The translations under genes and the position numbers were made by a program. From Methanobacteriota archaeon (GTDB taxonomy: Archaea; Thermoplasmatota; Poseidoniia; Poseidoniales; Poseidoniaceae): a stretch of 34,616 nt of DNA. The notes beneath the pieces were generated by a model, which was given only the letters and a program-made list of their open reading frames with translations, searched no databases and had not been told where the DNA came from. The DNA is taken from NCBI GenBank assembly GCA_002722615.1, contig PBMQ01000020.1, positions 26,738 to 61,353 on the forward strand, written 5' to 3'. Positions 97 to 24,067 of the stretch are shown here, piece after piece; within the stretch, counting starts at the first letter, position 1; each line of letters begins with the position of its first letter.

Positions 97-579
97 TTAT
101 GATGCGTCTGAAGAACTGGATATGCCAAAAAACTTCAGGACAATGACTGTGTCGCCACCCGGATCGCCAGATAGAACAACCTCTACCTCGTCAGCCGTTG
201 CTGTGGCCGCAGTGGTTGTGCCACCGGACATTCCGAGAACGCCGTTGCAAGGGAAGAATCCCTTGAAGCCTGTAGAGTTGACAGCGGCAGAGATACCATC
301 GACAAAGCCATCTGTGTCTGCGTCAGTGCCAATATCGTTAAGGTTGACGGCATTAGCGGCGGCTGTAGTGACAACAACCGTGACACCCATAGGGAGGAAG
401 TTTGACGGGATACCAATGGCGGCTTCTTTACCTGTCGTCGCACCGTCAGCAACGGTAATCGTCGCCTCGTAGGTGGATAACGTCATAGTGCTGGTAATAG
501 AGCCAGTGGTGGAGTTTTTGGTGATGTCTGAGAACCCGTTTTCAGAACGGACGGGACCGTTGAATGTAGAATTAGCCAT
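97..579 (-). CDS. putative virion/head-associated protein (Thr/Ala/Val-rich)
   Basis: 160-aa ORF downstream of the major capsid gene; composition typical of decoration/head proteins. Confidence 0.55.
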   Translation of the reverse strand: MANSTFNGPVRSENGFSDITKNSTTGSITSTMTLSTYEATITVADGATTGKEAAIGIPSNFLPMGVTVVVTTAAANAVNLNDIGTDADTDGFVDGISAAVNSTGFKGFFPCNGVLGMSGGTTTAATATADEVEVVLSGDPGGDTVIVLKFFGISSSSDAS

Positions 580-608
580 GTGATTCTCCTGTCGTGGCTA
601 GTGTCTAA

Positions 609-624
609 TGTTCCATGTGGAACA
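609..624. promoter_or_regulatory. parS-like inverted repeat TGTTCCAtGTGGAACA
   Basis: 7-bp inverted arms; 15/16 identical to the palindrome TGTTCCACGTGGAACA. Confidence 0.5.
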
Positions 625-635
625 ATTAGTCAGGG

Positions 636-4300: not shown

Positions 4301-6731
4301 CTATGATGTCCTTCACCATATTGAAGCCAGCCTTGAAGCCCTCTATTTCTTGCTGAGAAGCCTCTTTGCTGTCTTGCATCGCAACCTTAGCCGCGATCTT
4401 TGCGCTTTCTAAGCGTTCCTCTTGATCCATCTTCTCCAGATCAATCATGGTTTTGGCTTCAGCTTTTTGTGCATCGACTTGGACTTTTGCCATGTCGGTT
4501 TGCGCCCTAGCCATAGCCTGCTGTTCCTTGAGCGCCAACTCTCGCTGTTGCATCTGAATAACAGGATCTTGCGACTGTTTGGCGTTTTGTTCTGCCTGCT
4601 CCATCATCTTGGCCTTGCCCGTAAGCTGTTCAGCCGCAGGCACTGCCAGTCTGGATATACGCAGTTCAATATCTTCGGGTAGCTTTTCGTCTGGACCGGG
4701 AAGCTCCATTCCCAATTCTTTCTCAATCTTAGACCTGTATAGAAACGCTACATGTTCTGCAATGTGCGCGGCAAAAGCGGCCTCTATGGCCTTTTTGTTG
4801 GGCGCCCGGGCGACCATCTTCATGATCTCTGGGTTTTGCATCGCCGCCATGTGGACTTGGATGTGGGCTTCGTGATCCTGATATATAAACGCCTTGACCG
4901 GCTCTCCGGTGATGATGTTCATATTTTCTGTAATAGGATCAGTTGGCTTAATGTCGTCCTCTGTTGGAACGATTTTGTCTGCGTCCTGAATGCCCAAGAC
5001 ATCTAACATCTGACGGTGAAGCAGTGGCAAGTCATACATCTGGGGTGCCTGAGCCGCCAACTGCAACGCCGCCTGATACTGCATGATCCTTTGAGCCATT
5101 GTGCCTGCGTTAGGATCGCTGACCGGAATAATGTCTACCCGATCATCAAAGTCCATCGGCAGTGCCTGCCCATCCTCATCTTCGTAGGGATAAACCTCTG
5201 GACCGTAGTCCCTGACAAGCTCTGCCAATATCTTTAGTTCTTTGGAGACTGCCGCGTGAACACGAGCCTGTACCGCGCTCATCACCTTCATCTCTCGCTC
5301 TAGAACTGCAAGCGTGGTGCCAACCGGCGCTTCGCCATTGATGTCTGAGGCTTTTACATCCGCCGCTGACGCAAATCGACGCCCCTCCTGAACAATGTCG
5401 CCCAGCAACTGGTAAAGGACGTTGCTCGGCTCCTTGTAAGGCAGGAACGTGATGTTGTCGCGGATTGCACCACCCGGAACGTCTACGTCTCGGAACTCTC
5501 CGGGCATGATGGGAGTGTCATCGCCCTTAATTCTGAGTCCCCGAGATTTCAATCCCCCCGGTAGGTTGGCAAGTGTTCCGGCGTCTACCAGCTGTCTCAG
5601 CAACGATGTTGCCGACTTGGATAGACCACCGATCATATGTACTAGGCCGAAGCCATAAAAGCCCAGACCGGGCAAATACTGGTAGTGAACATAGTGATCC
5701 CGCTTCATCTTCTTGGGGTCACTTTCATACCAGTTTCGTCGAATCGACAGGATTGTTCTTGATGACTTGTCAATGGTAACGACATAAGGCAAAGCAATGC
5801 CCGTGGTCTTGCCTCCGTCCTTGTCCTCAAACCCAATAAGGTCGATATCGACGTGCATCTCAAGCAGGGTATGGCGGTTGTCAAACTCGTAATTGTCCGA
5901 GTCTCCAGTCAGCCGATCATACTTCTGCTGTATCTCTGAAATATCCGGTGATGGAGCAGGCAAGTCTATGTCAGAATAAAACCCGCTTACCTGTAACTTC
6001 CTGATTTCATTGGAAGTTTTCTTCATTACATGCGTAGCACGCTCGCAGGTAGTCAGGTCTGATGCACCATAACTAACAACAAAATCCTCTGCTGGCACAA
6101 ACATGGCACAAGGTCTGCCCATGCTTGGGTCAAAGTACACCTTGCGGAATGCAGAGCCTGCAATCGACAGAGAAAACAACAGCTTCTCTGTCTCCGTTCG
6201 GTATTCCGTCATACGCTGGGTAATCAGGTAGTTGAGGTAGTTCTCAACTCTGTGCGCCTGCTTGGTCTTTTCGTCGTCTATCTTGCCGACGATAGTGGTC
6301 TTTACAGGCCCACTGGCAGGATATATCTCCTGTATCGTTTGTGCTTGAAAGCGGATAACCGCCTCGGACAGCATAGGGTGAAATACCCCGCAGGCTCCTT
6401 CCCACGGCGTAGACCTGTCCTCAAACTTTAGTCCTAACAAGTCAAGACCACGGACATAGGAGTCTTCCCAGTCTGCACGGCTCATCCGGTCAGCATCAAA
6501 CTGGGATACTAGCTCACTAGCAAGACTGTCTAGGTCTCGCTCATCCATGTACTCAGCAAGGTTAGAGCCATGCTCAACGCCCATGAGGGCAGGCATATTG
6601 GGATCAAAATCAATAATCATCCCGCCATCTTCGTCCATCAAGCTGACAGACTCGGGATTCTCGATAACGATCTCTAGCTCTTCTGCGGCCCCAGAAGGGG
6701 CGAAGGGCGTTGCTACGCGGTCAACAGCCAC
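4278..6731 (-). CDS. portal protein
   Basis: 817 aa; portal-type sequence (WEGACGVFHPMLSEAVIRFQAQTIQEIYPASGPVKT...), Gln/Ala-rich helical C-terminus, adjacent to TerL block. Confidence 0.85.
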   Translation of the reverse strand: MAVDRVATPFAPSGAAEELEIVIENPESVSLMDEDGGMIIDFDPNMPALMGVEHGSNLAEYMDERDLDSLASELVSQFDADRMSRADWEDSYVRGLDLLGLKFEDRSTPWEGACGVFHPMLSEAVIRFQAQTIQEIYPASGPVKTTIVGKIDDEKTKQAHRVENYLNYLITQRMTEYRTETEKLLFSLSIAGSAFRKVYFDPSMGRPCAMFVPAEDFVVSYGASDLTTCERATHVMKKTSNEIRKLQVSGFYSDIDLPAPSPDISEIQQKYDRLTGDSDNYEFDNRHTLLEMHVDIDLIGFEDKDGGKTTGIALPYVVTIDKSSRTILSIRRNWYESDPKKMKRDHYVHYQYLPGLGFYGFGLVHMIGGLSKSATSLLRQLVDAGTLANLPGGLKSRGLRIKGDDTPIMPGEFRDVDVPGGAIRDNITFLPYKEPSNVLYQLLGDIVQEGRRFASAADVKASDINGEAPVGTTLAVLEREMKVMSAVQARVHAAVSKELKILAELVRDYGPEVYPYEDEDGQALPMDFDDRVDIIPVSDPNAGTMAQRIMQYQAALQLAAQAPQMYDLPLLHRQMLDVLGIQDADKIVPTEDDIKPTDPITENMNIITGEPVKAFIYQDHEAHIQVHMAAMQNPEIMKMVARAPNKKAIEAAFAAHIAEHVAFLYRSKIEKELGMELPGPDEKLPEDIELRISRLAVPAAEQLTGKAKMMEQAEQNAKQSQDPVIQMQQRELALKEQQAMARAQTDMAKVQVDAQKAEAKTMIDLEKMDQEERLESAKIAAKVAMQDSKEASQQEIEGFKAGFNMVKDIIDDEESKQ

Positions 6732-7022
6732 TTAGCCTTTTCCGCCTCTCTTACCGCCCTTGGTGCTCATCTTGCTCATCACCTTGCCGCCTTTAAAGTA
6801 GCCCTTCGCCATCATCTTGTTGGCTACCTTTGTTTTTCCGCCGCCTGCCATCTTCCCTTGGCCGTCTGCGGCAAAATGCGGCACCTCTTGGCCCTTGTCG
6901 TTCGTGACCATTTTCATCTTGCCGCCTGCCTTCATACCCTTGGGCACCATCTTGCCGCCTGCCTTCATGCCCTTGGGCATCTTGCCGCCTCTACGATTCA
7001 TCTTGTTCTTCATCGTCCTCAC
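6732..7022 (-). CDS. Lys/Gly/Met-rich repeat protein
   Basis: 96 aa with tandem KGMKAGGKM repeats. Confidence 0.6.
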   Translation of the reverse strand: MRTMKNKMNRRGGKMPKGMKAGGKMVPKGMKAGGKMKMVTNDKGQEVPHFAADGQGKMAGGGKTKVANKMMAKGYFKGGKVMSKMSTKGGKRGGKG

Positions 7023-9914: not shown

Positions 9915-10165
9915 TACGCCATCCGTGCTGTTTTCGTGCGTTTAAACGACCTGTTCTTTGATCTGTTCGCCACCTTCAAGTTGCCCTTCTTGTTAGAGCC
10001 GCCTTTTGCCAGTGGTTTTTTGTGAGCAACATCCTTTCCGTCGCCCTTGGAAACCTTGCCTTCCTTCTCCATCAAGCGCCTAGCGGCCTTCCGCTTATCG
10101 TTGTTTCGGCGCTGTTTTGGCTTGGATTGGTAGTTTTCGTATTCCTTGCGGTAGTTTCGCCTCAT
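9914..10165 (-). CDS. small basic HNH-like protein next to terL
   Basis: 83 aa; KGDGKDVAHKKPLAKGGSNKKGNLKVANRSKNRSF resembles an HNH core (D-H...GG..N..NL....N..). Confidence 0.6.
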   Translation of the reverse strand: MRRNYRKEYENYQSKPKQRRNNDKRKAARRLMEKEGKVSKGDGKDVAHKKPLAKGGSNKKGNLKVANRSKNRSFKRTKTARMA

Positions 10166-12201
10166 ATCGTGGTCATCACGCCGCCCCTGCGGAAGAACTC
10201 ATCGTTGTAGGGGCCACTATAAAAGCCAAAATTAGGAGCATAGCTTATAGTGTTGTCTAGACCGCCAACCGGAATATCTCTGAATCCACCAAATTGACGA
10301 CCGCTAAAGTATGGATTTCCGAACTGTTCTCTAAAGGGTGTGGTTGTGGGAGAGGGTCCACCTGCCATGACCCCGGAAAAACCACCGCCTGTCGCGTAGG
10401 GGTTGTAACCTCCGCCGAAACCGCCGCCTTTGCCGCCTCCCCCTCTTCCGCCTTTTCCGCCGCCAGATCTAGGCGGCTGGAATCCACCATATGGGCCAAA
10501 GCCAGTGGAGTATCCAGACATCAGTCCGCGGTTAGGCATGTACTGTTGAGACATGCCATAAGGAGAGCCGAAACCTCCGCCCTTACCGAATCCGCCCATA
10601 CCACTAAAGCCCATCGGATTACTCAGGCCGTAAGGACCGGAAAAAAGTTGATTGCCGGTAATGTACTGCCCGGGCATTCTGTAAAGACCGCCAGACGGAT
10701 ATGTTGAGCCGCCCGAAGATGTACCGCCTCCGCCAGATGTGGTGCCTCCACCACCCCCAGATGTATTGTCTGTTACTGCGTCTGCCCTCGCTTGATACTC
10801 GCTTAGGTCAGAGCCATACGGAACATTCGCAAAACCGCCATCTATAGCAAATGGGCTGTTTGCTCTGTCGATTCCGAGTGAGTTCAGATAGGCTTGATAG
10901 TCGTTACTCTGACCAGTGGCCGCACCACGATCATAAGCGAGTTGCACAAGGTTCCGTCTAAGCTGGTCTTCTGTTAATTGACCAGACTCAAGATTCCTCA
11001 TGTACTGGCCGTATCCGCCTGTGAACTCCCCTGTGGCATCGTCTCGTATACCCCTCGCTGGCCTTCTGCCAAATAACGCTTGAGTCGCCGAAAAAACAGG
11101 GTCGCCCGACTGACTGCCTTGGTAGTACAGACTATCTAGCGGGCCGGCCTCATTAATCAGAACATTCCTAAGGTTGGCAGGGTCGTATGCGCCAGCATTC
11201 AATCGCTGGTTGAAGTAGTCCAGACCGGCTTGACTGGGCGATCTGTTAAAAAGCTCTCGGTAATACTGATTAAGCAGGGTGTTGTAATTTGTTGGGCTGA
11301 AACCACCGTCTCCCCCCGAAGAGCTTGCTGAACTGCCACCTCCAGCACCCCCGGTGCTTCCGGACCCTCCAGTACCTCCAGCATTTCCAGTATCTCCGGC
11401 GCCTGCGCTTGAACCTGCACTACCTCCAGAGTCTCCAGTGCCAGAAGTGTCAGCAGTGCTGGCATCTCCAGCAGTGTCCTGCTGAGCAGAATTCGCTTCT
11501 AGTTCGCTTAAAATAGATTCGTAATTCTGCGCCGAACCAGAATTGACCGCCTGAAAGATCTTCTCACCGTAAAAATCTAGTGCTTCACTGTCAGCATCTC
11601 GTCCAAAATATTGACGAAAAAGCTCATTAGCATGTTCTTTTGCTCGGTTTCTTTGAGCTAACCGCGCCGCGCCGGAACTGCCCCCGTCTCCGTAAATGGT
11701 ATTGAAAATGCTTTGGTAGGCACCGAATGTGTCTTGGTTTTGGCTGGGCGTTGAGGATGGTGATGGATCCTGAGCAGGTTCCGACTCGCTTTCTTTAAAT
11801 TTTGCCTTGTAACTGTAATTGACGGGTCGAACGTCAAAGGAAGTGACGGTGCCGTCGGGATTTGCGAAATACTGCTTATCGCCAATCCGCGTAGTCTGAG
11901 AACTTTGAGGGAGTCTGTATAAGTTGCCTTCCGAGTCCGTAACGCTACGGCCTCCGCTGTTCAACATGTTTTGGCGAACGCGCTCCAAGTCAGACATGTT
12001 GCGCGGGTCTTCCTCATAAATGCCGAATGTAGGGTCGTATGTTGTACCACCGCCCAGCAATGCGGAAAACTCTGCCGGAGACAGGGTCTGCCCGGAGCCG
12101 GGAAGCGCCACCAACCCACTAAGCGCACTGCGCCGTCGATAAATCTCAGGGTCTATTTCCGCCAAGGCTGATGGGCTTACATAATCACTGTATTCGGCCA
12201 T
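10162..12201 (-). CDS. virion protein with DUF4214-like repeats and Gly-rich C-terminus
   Basis: 679 aa; FRQYFGRDADSEALDFYGEKI and YRELFNRSPSQAGLDYFNQRL are DUF4214-like; long Gly/Ser and Gly/Tyr/Phe tracts. Confidence 0.7.
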   Translation of the reverse strand: MAEYSDYVSPSALAEIDPEIYRRRSALSGLVALPGSGQTLSPAEFSALLGGGTTYDPTFGIYEEDPRNMSDLERVRQNMLNSGGRSVTDSEGNLYRLPQSSQTTRIGDKQYFANPDGTVTSFDVRPVNYSYKAKFKESESEPAQDPSPSSTPSQNQDTFGAYQSIFNTIYGDGGSSGAARLAQRNRAKEHANELFRQYFGRDADSEALDFYGEKIFQAVNSGSAQNYESILSELEANSAQQDTAGDASTADTSGTGDSGGSAGSSAGAGDTGNAGGTGGSGSTGGAGGGSSASSSGGDGGFSPTNYNTLLNQYYRELFNRSPSQAGLDYFNQRLNAGAYDPANLRNVLINEAGPLDSLYYQGSQSGDPVFSATQALFGRRPARGIRDDATGEFTGGYGQYMRNLESGQLTEDQLRRNLVQLAYDRGAATGQSNDYQAYLNSLGIDRANSPFAIDGGFANVPYGSDLSEYQARADAVTDNTSGGGGGTTSGGGGTSSGGSTYPSGGLYRMPGQYITGNQLFSGPYGLSNPMGFSGMGGFGKGGGFGSPYGMSQQYMPNRGLMSGYSTGFGPYGGFQPPRSGGGKGGRGGGGKGGGFGGGYNPYATGGGFSGVMAGGPSPTTTPFREQFGNPYFSGRQFGGFRDIPVGGLDNTISYAPNFGFYSGPYNDEFFRRGGVMTTI

Positions 12202-12240: not shown

Positions 12241-12362
12241 CTAGGAATGTACTAGCTCTAGGAAGTTTCTAGCTAGAAACCACCCATAAACAAAAACTTA
12301 GTAACTTACTAGGCCAGAACAGTCCTAGTGCTAGGAGATTTCTAGATCTAGAACCTTACTAG
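12241..12362. repeat. CTAG-rich box cluster (11 CTAG tetramers in ~122 bp)
   Basis: CTAG at 12241, 12252, 12258, 12269, 12273, 12309, 12325, 12331, 12342, 12348, 12359; 15-mer boxes at 12258-12272, 12331-12345, 12348-12362. Confidence 0.75.
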
Positions 12363-12643
12363 GTAGAAATACCCCCGGATTGTACAGAATATAACCCCTT
12401 GACAGTAACATGTCTACAGTTAGACGGGTTTTTTGGCCGATTTTTTGTTAATTTTTGGCATTTTGGTCAAATTTTGCAGAAATATAGGGGGGTATGGGGC
12501 TCCTAAGGCGATTTCCCATGAAAAAACCCCCGATTAGACAGTGTGACAGTGAGACAAAGTTCAAAATTAGCTCATTTTTTGAGCGGATCACTATGTATAT
12601 AGAAGCGACATGGCCTCGAGCTACAGGGGGGGTGGGGGTCGCT

Positions 12644-13138
12644 TCAATGGATGTCCACAGTATCTGGCCGATCCCGGGAAAACTCGAGATCGTCTACGTC
12701 TGACGTGTCATCAGCAGTGGCTGAGTCGAGCATCGCATCGAGTTCGGCGAGCAGGTCAGCCGATGACCGCACGTCGACCTCAGCTGTCAGTTCGACAAAG
12801 GCGCCGGATGCGCGGCCCAGTAGCTCCAGAGCGCGGAGCCTGCCGCTATCCTGAGGGCTGGCAGTGAGCGCGAGGTCTCGCAGATGCTTCCTGACCATCT
12901 CACGGTCAGAGAGTGCAGAAGCAACCATACCGGCCTCTCTAGCGCGTATCAGCTGGTCATACCTTGACTTTACCTTGCGTGACCCAGCGAGCCTACTCGC
13001 TCTCTCATGCACGCTCTTGGCCTTGGCCTCCGGCCCCACGTCGAACGCTTCCCGATAGGCGTCAGACTGAGACATACCGCTAGCCCACGCCCGACAGAAG
13101 TGAAGCTGTTTGCTTGTGAGTTCCTTGTCGTCTGCCAT
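12644..13138 (-). CDS. terS: terminase small subunit
   Basis: 164 aa; LTSKQLHFCRAWASGMSQSDAYREAFDVGP...AKSVHERASRLAGSRKVKSRYDQLI is a TerS-type N-terminus. Confidence 0.85.
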   Translation of the reverse strand: MADDKELTSKQLHFCRAWASGMSQSDAYREAFDVGPEAKAKSVHERASRLAGSRKVKSRYDQLIRAREAGMVASALSDREMVRKHLRDLALTASPQDSGRLRALELLGRASGAFVELTAEVDVRSSADLLAELDAMLDSATADDTSDVDDLEFSRDRPDTVDIH

Positions 13139-13324: not shown

Positions 13325-13606
13325 ACAGAGCCTCTGAGGGCATGTTCAACTGCAATTAAATGCTCTGAAACGCACTAAAAAGTCGTCACTAAATCACGCT
13401 TACAGGCCGAACTTAAAGTAGATTCTAGGTCTATCAGCTGTACGTTTTCGCGTAGGTATATAAAAGGCACCATGACTTCAGTGGTATTATTTCACACAAT
13501 GCTTCATGTCAACTTGTCATCAGATAGCCTTATAATCCGCTCACGGGCCGACGGTACCCATGTAAATATTACCGTTAATATTACCAATCCTGTAGGAGGG
13601 ATTTGC

Positions 13607-14008: not shown

Positions 14009-14958
14009 GTACATTCATCGAGAACCTATCAAACAACATGTTATTGCTACCCGTTTCGATGGGGCGTATCCAGTTGGAGGTGAAGACTAAAAAGGGCGCC
14101 GATGCGATCAAATCCGCGCTGGGTGTCGCTGAGGGTGTCCGCGCTGGCGGCACCATCGGTGCGCTGGGCGCGATGACTGATCTAGCCGCTGAGTTGATCA
14201 ACCGCCCCTATGGCCACGCACGCACATACACTTACACCCGCACGCTCGCCGCCGCTGTCCGCGGTCATCGCATCGTGACCACTACCCGCACGCCTGAGCA
14301 CCTGACCCGCTATGCTGAGTTCAGGCACGCAATGAACAGCGGTATCGAAGAATTCATGCCGCAGTATGAGACGTACTACAAAAGCACCAATGGCATTGCC
14401 GACATGGGCTCCAGTCAGATCAAGATCCCGCACCCTGACGCCGTGCGCGAGAAGGCCTATATCAACATCGGCGTACCCCAGCAGATCCGGCCTACTGACC
14501 TCGATGGTATGAATCTCCCCGCCGGTCTGGCCGCTGACATTGCCGCACGCACTGACGCCCACATCATGCAACAGGCAGAGGCCGCGAAGACCGCCGCCGT
14601 CGAGGAGTTGGCAAAGGCCGTCGATAACATCGAGAAACAGTTGACCTCAGGCAAACGGCTCCACGACTCGCTGATCTCGAACGCACAGAATGCATCCCGC
14701 AACCTGCGCGAGTTCACCGACTCATTCGACAACGACCCCCGCCTGATCGAGGCCTGCGATATTGTCGACGACCGCATCGCGTCATCTACCCTTGAACAGG
14801 TTAAAAACAGTGAGACGTTGCGCTCTCAGGCGGTCCGCGCCGCGTCTACTGCAAGCAAATCCCTCAAGCGAGTCGCATCGGCCCCCGCCGTGTCCGCACC
14901 CGCTGAGGTTGGCACCATCATCACCGGCGACTCACTGCTCGCTGACTTAATCGACTGA
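14005..14958 (+). CDS. hypothetical protein preceding MoxR
   Basis: 317 aa, 4-bp overlap with previous ORF; helical C-terminal half. Confidence 0.75.
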   Translation: MSTFIENLSNNMLLLPVSMGRIQLEVKTKKGADAIKSALGVAEGVRAGGTIGALGAMTDLAAELINRPYGHARTYTYTRTLAAAVRGHRIVTTTRTPEHLTRYAEFRHAMNSGIEEFMPQYETYYKSTNGIADMGSSQIKIPHPDAVREKAYINIGVPQQIRPTDLDGMNLPAGLAADIAARTDAHIMQQAEAAKTAAVEELAKAVDNIEKQLTSGKRLHDSLISNAQNASRNLREFTDSFDNDPRLIEACDIVDDRIASSTLEQVKNSETLRSQAVRAASTASKSLKRVASAPAVSAPAEVGTIITGDSLLADLID

Positions 14959-14979
14959 TCCTGTAGGAGGGATATCACA

Positions 14980-17565: not shown

Positions 17566-17597
17566 CATTAACAAGTTATCCTGTAGGAGGGATCGAT

Positions 17598-19914: not shown

Positions 19915-20274
19915 ATGGCAAAGTATCGACGCAAAAGCAAAAGATGGTCACCTCGCGAAGACGCGGTGCTCATTTCTGGAATACAGAACGAAAAACCCTA
20001 CGAAGAGATTGGCGGTGAGCTTGGAAGAACAGCCTCCTCCGTCGCCCAAAGAATTTATTCTTTGCGACACAAATCTCTAGCCATCCCGCCGCTGGCCAAG
20101 GCAAAGCCACAAAAAGCGGTAAGGCGGGTAGAGCCTGTCATCAAGGCATCGGAGCCAGAGATCAAAGCTATTGCGGATGACAACCGCATTTGGCTGGCAA
20201 TGGCTAGCGGGGTAACCAGCGCCTTCCTCTCACTTGCCACCCTCGTAGTCATCTTGATTGCCTTGATGACATGA
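19915..20274 (+). CDS. Myb/SANT-like DNA-binding domain protein with C-terminal transmembrane helix
   Basis: RWSPREDAVLISGIQNEKPYEEIGGELGRTASSVAQRIYSLRHK; C-term IWLAMASGVTSAFLSLATLVVILIALMT. Confidence 0.65.
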   Translation: MAKYRRKSKRWSPREDAVLISGIQNEKPYEEIGGELGRTASSVAQRIYSLRHKSLAIPPLAKAKPQKAVRRVEPVIKASEPEIKAIADDNRIWLAMASGVTSAFLSLATLVVILIALMT

Positions 20275-20686: not shown

Positions 20687-21166
20687 TCAACCGCCGCTCT
20701 TTAAATGCCTTACCGGATTCTTACCACCGGACATACGCCGCTCAGCAATCCAGCCCAGCCCCTTTTTTAGGGTGAGAAGCCTTTCTTTTGATGCAGAAAT
20801 GTCCCACCCATGGACCACCACCTCCTCGACAAGATACCTAGCATAGTCGCCATATCGCCTACCGACTAGTCTTAAAGTCTTTCCGTACCGCATCAAGGCG
20901 TCAGACGCCATCGAGTCTGGATTTGCATCTCCTGACCCCGCCTCGTACCTGAGGGGCTTGGAAAAGATGCCGGCCTTCACCGCCTGACTCAGAATATACT
21001 CTCCAGCTTGGTGCTCACCCAAGGTCAGTAAACCGTCCATGAGATATCTGTCAATCACATTCTGATCCATGACTTTGGCGCGAGGCATCGTGCCGCCCTC
21101 CACCATGACGGCGTGGCGCTTGTGTATCTCTTTTGTGCCTAAGTCTGTGTGTAACTTGTCAGTCAT
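20687..21166 (-). CDS. hypothetical protein
   Basis: 159 aa; RHAVMVEGG...VIDRYLMDGLLTLGEHQAGEYIL pattern seen in phage/alphaproteobacterial hypotheticals (DUF6456-like, tentative). Confidence 0.65.
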   Translation of the reverse strand: MTDKLHTDLGTKEIHKRHAVMVEGGTMPRAKVMDQNVIDRYLMDGLLTLGEHQAGEYILSQAVKAGIFSKPLRYEAGSGDANPDSMASDALMRYGKTLRLVGRRYGDYARYLVEEVVVHGWDISASKERLLTLKKGLGWIAERRMSGGKNPVRHLKSGG

Positions 21167-21235: not shown

Positions 21236-22984
21236 CTAGAACTCATCGAAGTCATCCCATGCCCTGCCCCGCAATTTAGACAGGCTCGTGGTCGGCGGAT
21301 CTGGATCGGGTGTCCTCTCGGTGTATGTACCGTTAAACATGTTATAGCTAAGATGTGCTACGCCCTGAGATCCCACCCACTTGAATCTTGATTTCCAACA
21401 GTGTATCTCGACGCATTCATCTGTTCTGTGAACTGTCACACCTAGATCAGCCTTGGCAAACCATGCGGCAGAGCCTGAAATATTCATGCCCTTGGGGACT
21501 GCGTAGGTGCCATCCTCACGGGGGTACATCTTCTGGGGGTGCGCGACAAACCAGACGTGAATGCCATGCGCTTTGGCAAAGCTGGTGATTCGGGTCAGCA
21601 TCTGAGAAATGTTGCTGTGTTCTTCCTGACTGCTAGATTCTATGTAGTTGTACGGGTCGATGATGAGACCCCGCACGCCCATACGCATGACCGCCTGCTT
21701 GGCCCTATCGATAATTGAGTCAATCGTGCTGAGGCCACCGTCCTTGCTTTCAAGGAAGACAAAGTGATCGTTTATAAACTCGACAGCCTCACCTAGCTCA
21801 TCCTCTGTCATTCTCTCGCTAAGTCCGGTGTAAAACGGCTTGCCTGATACCTTTTCAGCCAGCTTGGCGATGTGCATATGTGGCGGGTTTTCAAACGAAC
21901 AGACCGCAAACTTCCACGATTCACGTTTAGCAAGGTTGATCATAATCTGATCGATAAACTCAGACTTTCCTGAGCTTGGCATCCCCGTCACAACAGACAA
22001 CTGGCCCTCAGCAACGGTAAATAACTCGTCAATCGAGTCAAATCCCGTCGAGGCGCCCCGCCCGTGACCGTTCTGGTAGATGTCCTTGACTGCATCCATG
22101 TACTCGCTGACACCATACACACCAGACAAGGGTATCGGCTCAGGGTTGTCGAAGATCCTGCGGGTTTCTTCGGCTCCTAACTTGTCAACAGCATCGTTTG
22201 CATCTTTGGCGCCCTTGGGGAATTTGACCCTCCAGCACTTTGCTCTGCCCACTCGGCGCGCAATCTCCTCTGCCAGCGCCTCGCCAGCCTCATCGCTATC
22301 TGTCGCCAGAACAATCTTCTTGCACCGATCTAATCGCTCGCGTTCATTCCACACAAACGCAAACTTTTTATCCTCCTCAGGATCTACCCTGTTGTGCGAT
22401 ACCTTTATCGGCGCCCCATTTGGGCAGGAAACGGCCTTGATTCCGATGCTGGCTAGAGCAATGACATCACACTCCCCCTCAACTATCGTTAACTCTTCAG
22501 CCTCTTCCTCTATGTTTTCGATGCCGTAAAAGGATCTTGGTGCGCCATCGCAGGTAAACCCCTTGCCCTCTACAGATCGCCACTTAATTGCCGTTGGCGA
22601 CTCCCGTGTGCCGTACACAAAACCAACCGCCTGCTTCTCCTCGCCCCCAAACCACTTGGTGCCGGTGGTCATCAGGGGTAGGTCATTGATGTCGTTGATT
22701 TTTACCCCTCGGGAGGAAAAGAAGTTCTTAACAAGTTCTACATTATCGTTTAGCTGTGTGGGTATCTTTACTACTTTACTTTGTGTCATATGAGCCTCGT
22801 AAAATTTTTCACGCCTGTAAGACCCAGACAAACCGCAATGGTGGCAGTGGTAAAGGGTATGGTCTGGCTTAACGGTGATTGAAAGTGTCTTTATAGTTTT
22901 CTTTTTGCGTGCATCTGAGCAGTCTGGGCAACGCTCTCTGGCATCTTGATTATGACTCAGGATGAAGTCTTTCAAGCTGTCCAT
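21236..22984 (-). CDS. primase-helicase (T7 gp4-like: zinc finger + TOPRIM + DnaB-type RecA core)
   Basis: CPDCSDARKKK...YHCHHCGLSG; IVEGECDVIALASIGIKAVSCPNG; ATDSDEAGEALAEE; VVTGMPSSGKSEFIDQIM. Confidence 0.92.
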   Translation of the reverse strand: MDSLKDFILSHNQDARERCPDCSDARKKKTIKTLSITVKPDHTLYHCHHCGLSGSYRREKFYEAHMTQSKVVKIPTQLNDNVELVKNFFSSRGVKINDINDLPLMTTGTKWFGGEEKQAVGFVYGTRESPTAIKWRSVEGKGFTCDGAPRSFYGIENIEEEAEELTIVEGECDVIALASIGIKAVSCPNGAPIKVSHNRVDPEEDKKFAFVWNERERLDRCKKIVLATDSDEAGEALAEEIARRVGRAKCWRVKFPKGAKDANDAVDKLGAEETRRIFDNPEPIPLSGVYGVSEYMDAVKDIYQNGHGRGASTGFDSIDELFTVAEGQLSVVTGMPSSGKSEFIDQIMINLAKRESWKFAVCSFENPPHMHIAKLAEKVSGKPFYTGLSERMTEDELGEAVEFINDHFVFLESKDGGLSTIDSIIDRAKQAVMRMGVRGLIIDPYNYIESSSQEEHSNISQMLTRITSFAKAHGIHVWFVAHPQKMYPREDGTYAVPKGMNISGSAAWFAKADLGVTVHRTDECVEIHCWKSRFKWVGSQGVAHLSYNMFNGTYTERTPDPDPPTTSLSKLRGRAWDDFDEF

Positions 22985-23022: not shown

Positions 23023-23090
23023 CTAGGACTGTACTAGACTAGAACCTTCCTATTTAAAATAGGTATATATCTAGACTAGAACCTTCCTAG
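23023..23090. repeat. second CTAG box cluster with exact 19-bp direct repeat CTAGACTAGAACCTTCCTA (23034-23052, 23071-23089)
   Basis: Six CTAG in 68 bp; same box as 12342-12361 (CTAGATCTAGAACCTTACTA). Confidence 0.8.
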
Positions 23091-23111: not shown

Positions 23112-23134
23112 AGCCCCCGCTAGGGGGCTTTTTT
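23112..23134 (+). terminator. Rho-independent terminator AGCCCCC-GCTA-GGGGGCT-TTTTT
   Basis: 7-bp GC stem plus T run on the + strand, although flanking genes are leftward. Confidence 0.75.
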
Positions 23135-23384: not shown

Positions 23385-23724
23385 TGATCTCTGCGCGTGG
23401 ATTTTCCTTGTCCACTCCCCCCCAATAAATATGCTTTTCTTTCACCTGCCTATCGTTTTTATACACGAAGCCTTGCATCACGTCCAGAATCAGTGACTCG
23501 TCTAGGTCGGGGCGTCTGGATTTATAGTAAATTTTAATGGTTACTGAAAGGTCGCCATCAAGAAGCGGGTCCATCTTTTTACATTGCTCGTGAAACATCT
23601 TGACGTACCCCAACGCTTTCTTTGACTTGATAACCATTGGGGCGCCAGCCCTGCTCTTAACAATTCTGCGGCTGTTGGCTTTGCTACACGGCTCTCCTGC
23701 AATTACCATACTTACCTTTGACAT
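23368..23724 (-). CDS. RusA-like Holliday junction resolvase
   Basis: 118 aa; RRPDLDESLILDVMQGFVYKNDRQVKEKHIYWGGVDKENPRAEIIV matches RusA acidic motif and C-terminus. Confidence 0.85.
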   Translation of the reverse strand: MSKVSMVIAGEPCSKANSRRIVKSRAGAPMVIKSKKALGYVKMFHEQCKKMDPLLDGDLSVTIKIYYKSRRPDLDESLILDVMQGFVYKNDRQVKEKHIYWGGVDKENPRAEIIVRHL

Positions 23725-23833
23725 ATATCGACTCCTACGTTAGCATCCGTTCTCCACATTGAGGAGTGTATCACGATGAGCAAAATGGGACGTTATGTCT
23801 TTGATCTACAGATGGCTGAGGAGGCCGAGTTTT

Positions 23834-24067
23834 ATGGACATCCAGATAGAAAAGCACGTACCAATCCCCAAGCGGACAAAGATACCGGACCTGCCGCTGG
23901 CAGAGATGGAGATCGGCGACTCTTTTGTGGCACCCATCAACGCGAGCGAGCAGACGGAGGTCAGAGCACTCCGACAGCGGATCTCCCGATGGCAACGGGA
24001 CCGACTCCCTGTGAGATTCTCCGTCGTTCGTGACGGCGAGCAGATGAGAGTCTTCCGAATCGCGTGA
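23834..24067 (+). CDS. hypothetical protein
   Basis: MDIQIEKHVPIPKRTKIPDLPLAEMEIGDSFVAPINASEQ...; start chosen inside the track ORF (23795). Confidence 0.6.
   Translation: MDIQIEKHVPIPKRTKIPDLPLAEMEIGDSFVAPINASEQTEVRALRQRISRWQRDRLPVRFSVVRDGEQMRVFRIA

Follow-up and report, generated by a model that had tools for sequence, protein, structure and literature searches.

The same CTAG-containing boxes lie in front of two operons of one viral genome, and the question raised by this locus is what these boxes are and whether one factor acts on both operons through them. The window (the whole stretch of 34,616 nucleotides that was analysed) is part of a contig of 61,353 bp, which is probably a phage genome close to complete because its ends repeat at 340 of 354 positions. 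The original prediction described a 19-bp direct repeat, CTAGACTAGAACCTTCCTA, whose two exact copies (23034-23052 and 23071-23089) have a spacing of 37 bp, with a match about 10.7 kb away, and placed both arrays in leaders of leftward operons. The repeat is present as claimed, the match CTAGATCTAGAACCTTACTA is found at 12342-12361, and both arrays are directly upstream of genes on the minus strand. The first precedes the primase-helicase gene (21236-22984; phrog_239, E=5.7e-83) and the second a gene for a protein of 679 amino acids and unknown function (10162-12201), the first of a late operon which runs leftward to TerL, the portal and the major head protein; each gene would be controlled from the array upstream of it.

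Dyad unit and organisation of the arrays

The 19-bp block with its 37-bp period was rejected as the unit, as it consists of the second half of one dyad and the next dyad. The repeat unit is a 15-bp dyad, CTAG-D-A-M-N-K-T-H-CTAG, or CTAG-N7-CTAG. The predicted operator array of the primase leader (23023-23090, no strand assigned), defined by its dyads and by conservation in the primase leaders of close relatives, contains four of them: CTAGGACTGTACTAG (23023-23037, exact), CTAGAACCTTCCTAT (23039-23053, degenerate), TAGGTATATATCTAG (23060-23074, degenerate and assigned by position only) and CTAGAACCTTCCTAG (23076-23090, exact). They form two pairs with a 16-bp period, either side of an AT-rich centre. 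The predicted array of the late leader (12241-12362, no strand assigned), defined in the same way from the relatives' late leaders, contains six dyads, of which four are exact (12241-12255, 12258-12272, 12331-12345 and 12348-12362) and two degenerate (12298-12312 and 12314-12328); the period is 16-17 bp, with a 25-bp gap at 12273-12297.

The six exact dyads of the window compare with 0.41 +/- 0.59 expected, and none of 100 dinucleotide shuffles reaches six. Based on 76 distinct dyads, the inner positions 6 and 10 are A and T nearly without exception. Positions 7 and 9 are complementary more often than in shuffled sequences (40 vs 28.6), positions 5 and 11 less often (12 vs 25.7), and the two-fold symmetry of CTAG-N7-CTAG extends to the central base. 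Since complementarity at 5/11 is below that of the shuffles and the symmetry leaves no room for an RNA loop, the unit is read as a DNA dyad and not as an RNA hairpin; symmetry of this kind would suit a protein dimer contacting unequal halves.

Restriction of the dyads to the phage

The virus that carries the arrays is marine and infects bacteria. The 1.84-Mb assembly has six perfect CTAG-N7-CTAG sites, and all of them fall inside the two arrays; a reversed control pattern has 19 sites in the same assembly. The 23 genomes of the same genus contain only 0-4 dyads each, scattered where listed, which makes a chromosomal regulon unlikely; with no other dyads in the assembly, a host regulon was rejected. 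A weight matrix trained on relatives, with the window and its 97% relative (L005) left out, places all nine top-scoring sites of the 61-kb contig inside the arrays. Among these nine the lowest score is 12.4, and the next site of the contig scores 8.3; peak scores in ten Markov sequences range from 7.3 to 12.4. When 2.9 million viral contigs were scanned for tandem dyads, 35 stretches were found, every one at either of these two leaders (34 placed by adjacent genes and L202 by synteny), and no second phage family was among them. Neither array has a match in Rfam, and the literature searched does not describe arrays of this kind for this group of phages.

Joint change of the two arrays in relatives

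Relatives were collected by primase and by large terminase; a scan of genome contigs added one distant primase only. Close relatives hold dyads at the same two leaders, that of the primase and the one after TerS, and their primase leaders also have two dyad pairs with a 16-bp period and an AT-rich centre. Conservation of the two arrays, which the original prediction had named as a check, takes a joint form: they are kept, changed or lost together, and the two leaders have the same motif type or are both without arrays in 20 of the 20 contigs in which both are readable, a count that includes near-identical contigs and corresponds to about three independent changes. Nine contigs have CTAG-N7 dyads at both leaders, one (L030) has GCGTATATATACGC-like dyads at both, seven distant phages have CTAG dyads at both whose spacing is different or mixed, and three (L036, L076 and L068) have no arrays at either. 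L030, whose primase is 69% identical, has no CTAG dyads; its four GCGTATATATACGC-like sites are divided two per leader, with none elsewhere in the locus (0.5 expected). The seven distant phages (L037, L062, L064-L066, L071 and L198; primase identity 46-48%) have mostly N5-N7 spacing at both leaders; the spacing shifts to N5 or N6 while CTAG stays.

Two further relatives, outside the concordance count and seen only in their late leaders, show several decayed late dyads next to an intact promoter block (L088, 194-430; L092, 1806-2040), a pattern that resembles operator-escape variants. In L036, whose leaders lack arrays, four CTAG occur within 150 bp at 6488-6640, away from both leaders.

Function of the arrays

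The occurrence of the same type, or joint absence, at both leaders in all 20 contigs supports one phage-encoded dimeric DNA-binding factor for both operons. We give a probability of about 0.6 to the reading that such a factor acts on both operons through operator arrays, most likely by repression; the two gene sets are thus probably under the control of a single viral protein. The proposal of one phage-encoded factor in the original prediction is supported in part: the arrays are phage-specific and are kept and switched together, as such a factor would predict, and the two regulators proposed with it remain candidates. Each dyad, with its CTAG half-sites and inner A and T, would be the site of a phage-encoded homodimer. 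Bound dimers would probably cooperate, since neighbouring dyads follow one another at 16-17 bp and an AT-rich gap divides each array. One factor at both leaders would coordinate the primase-helicase operon with the long late operon.

Concerning the direction of control, the position of the late array is informative. A late promoter-like block, TAGACA-N17-TATATT (12388-12416, minus strand), is strongly conserved in 32 aligned leaders, although part of it was fixed by the search pattern which collected many of them; it can alternatively be read as TTGTCA-like-N15-TACAAT. The array starts roughly 10-20 bases downstream of the presumed transcription start, past the sigma70-like block. Because it lies just downstream of this block, we infer that protein bound at the late leader represses the operon or forms a roadblock to transcription; it would hinder elongation or escape from the promoter. 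In the primase leader the protein would cover or block entry into the gene.

Repression is most likely, over activation, but the late genes of many phages are under positive control, and the arrays could be sites for a middle or late activator which switches on the primase and late promoters. The primase leader fits this: it has no sigma70-like promoter at a fixed place common to all relatives, as expected of an activator-dependent promoter, and next to its last dyad, close to where the primase gene starts, is a conserved AATATCA element. The late array is nevertheless downstream, not upstream, of its conserved promoter-like block, and we regard activation as possible but unlikely.

Sites for replication or DNA maintenance are quite improbable. 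Initiator iterons could flank an AT-rich melting region such as the centres between the dyads, or TerS could bind a partition or packaging site, and such roles agree with the location of the arrays, one beside the primase gene and one immediately following that of the small terminase. There are, however, two sites separated by 10.7 kb, and each immediately precedes a leftward gene; neither array shows a GC-skew switch, a measure confounded here by gene orientation, and the TerS of L092 is 79% identical in spite of its decayed late array. An action of the boxes at the RNA level, as hairpins or signals for antitermination in the leader transcript, is very improbable: the late array does lie within the presumed transcribed leader and terminator-like hairpins are found near the arrays, but the symmetry to the central base and the 5/11 statistics disfavour hairpins, and the spacing varies to N5 or N6 in distant relatives with CTAG kept.

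Candidate regulators

The preferences among candidate factors given here are judgements, not computed values. The tentative first choice is a protein of 159 amino acids (20687-21166, minus strand; hereafter 20687), encoded directly downstream of the primase in the same presumed operon; it would therefore be autoregulated. In the regions compared, it is the only small non-terminase ORF that occurs with array types A (CTAG-N7), B (L030) and C (the distant CTAG phages), and it is the most parsimonious candidate. It had been proposed as regulator in the original prediction, and its presence with every array type agrees with that role, whereas its presence in relatives without arrays (L033/L036/L076 and L068) does not. 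The variation of its helical region among CTAG-N7 phages is about as large as the difference from L030, and its structure model (pLDDT 73.7) gave no meaningful fold match and no known DNA-binding fold. We give the same tentative weight to another protein, recognised or not.

The second regulator proposed earlier, at 19915-20274 (plus strand), has a Myb/SANT-like N-terminal domain, with a strongly variable recognition helix, and a C-terminal hydrophobic helix. It is found in those CTAG-N7 phages whose contigs extend over its locus, and tracks only this type; as neither L030 nor the distant phages with CTAG arrays have it, it was rejected as a general factor, and its role as the factor is doubtful. 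TerS (12644-13138) is a still less probable choice. The protein of 90 amino acids at 23795-24067 (plus strand), the first gene of the rightward early operon, is a weak alternative with very little probability: it is DUF7303-like, was not found in distant phages with arrays, and no fold was matched meaningfully by its structure model (pLDDT 81.5). Searching solved structures by sequence returned nothing or insignificant matches.

Relation to known systems

One close comparison is with OL and OR of phage lambda, where operators are bound cooperatively by repressor dimers (CI/Cro). In both systems short dyads whose halves match imperfectly are clustered at two transcription units that lie far apart in the same phage, so that repeated-dyad operator clusters at at least two transcription units are found here as in lambda, and by analogy the arrays may work like such a two-locus multi-operator switch. 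They differ in having 15-bp CTAG dyads with a 16-17-bp period before a primase-helicase gene and a late operon. They also differ in the regulator: among the genes scanned with Pfam and PHROG, which include part of the small ORFs, there is no repressor of a known HTH family and no CI/Cro-like gene.

Stoperators are numerous, spread across the genome and asymmetric, with one orientation relative to transcription, whereas the sites described here are dyads and form only two clusters in 61 kb, confined to two leaders. In Cluster A mycobacteriophages they are repeated phage-specific sites which may lie away from promoters and whose specificity differs between phages (PMC6550527); the arrays are alike in being phage-specific repeats beyond a promoter, of a type that differs between phages. 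Because testable defining features of each are missing, the array system was assigned neither to the lambda type nor to the stoperators. The nearest isolates by large terminase (54-60% identity) are the pelagiphages HTVC023P/HTVC027P, 023Pt_psg01 and Phage DSL-LC04; their annotated replication genes are unlike those found here (three records inspected), and no comparable array was seen in the inspected leaders of HTVC027P and DSL-LC04.

With one motif at two leaders, and with motif switches that are paired, the arrays amount to a regulatory code that can be read from the genomes of an uncultivated marine phage group. If confirmed, this would name a new phage regulator, allow regulation in these phages to be tested from their sequences alone and provide a natural series of matched operator/regulator pairs. 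A wider reading, which we consider rather doubtful, is that these phages use an unrecognised DNA-binding family, such as that of 20687, to control replication and virion genes by a single switch; operator specificity would turn over at both loci together and so define immunity groups in phages without a recognised repressor or integrase.

Other features of the region

A hairpin resembling a rightward intrinsic terminator (AGCCCCCGCTAGGGGGCT followed by TTTTT; 23112-23134, plus strand) separates the primase array from the end of the leftward gene upstream of it, and is conserved in relatives. A promoter-like site for the rightward early operon, TTGACA-N17-TAGCAT (23718-23746, plus strand), overlaps the start of a rusA-like gene and has no CTAG dyads. 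A 16-bp exact repeat, ATCCTGTAGGAGGGAT, occurs three times (13587-13602, 14958-14973 and 17578-17593), apparently as a shared ribosome-binding leader of rightward genes. The small ORF at 6732-7022 holds two near-identical 32-bp tandem copies at 6914-6979. Just downstream of the major head protein gene, at 577-635 (minus strand), is a match to the Rfam Mu-gpT-DE RNA (RF03012), with 52.3 bits against a gathering threshold of 49.
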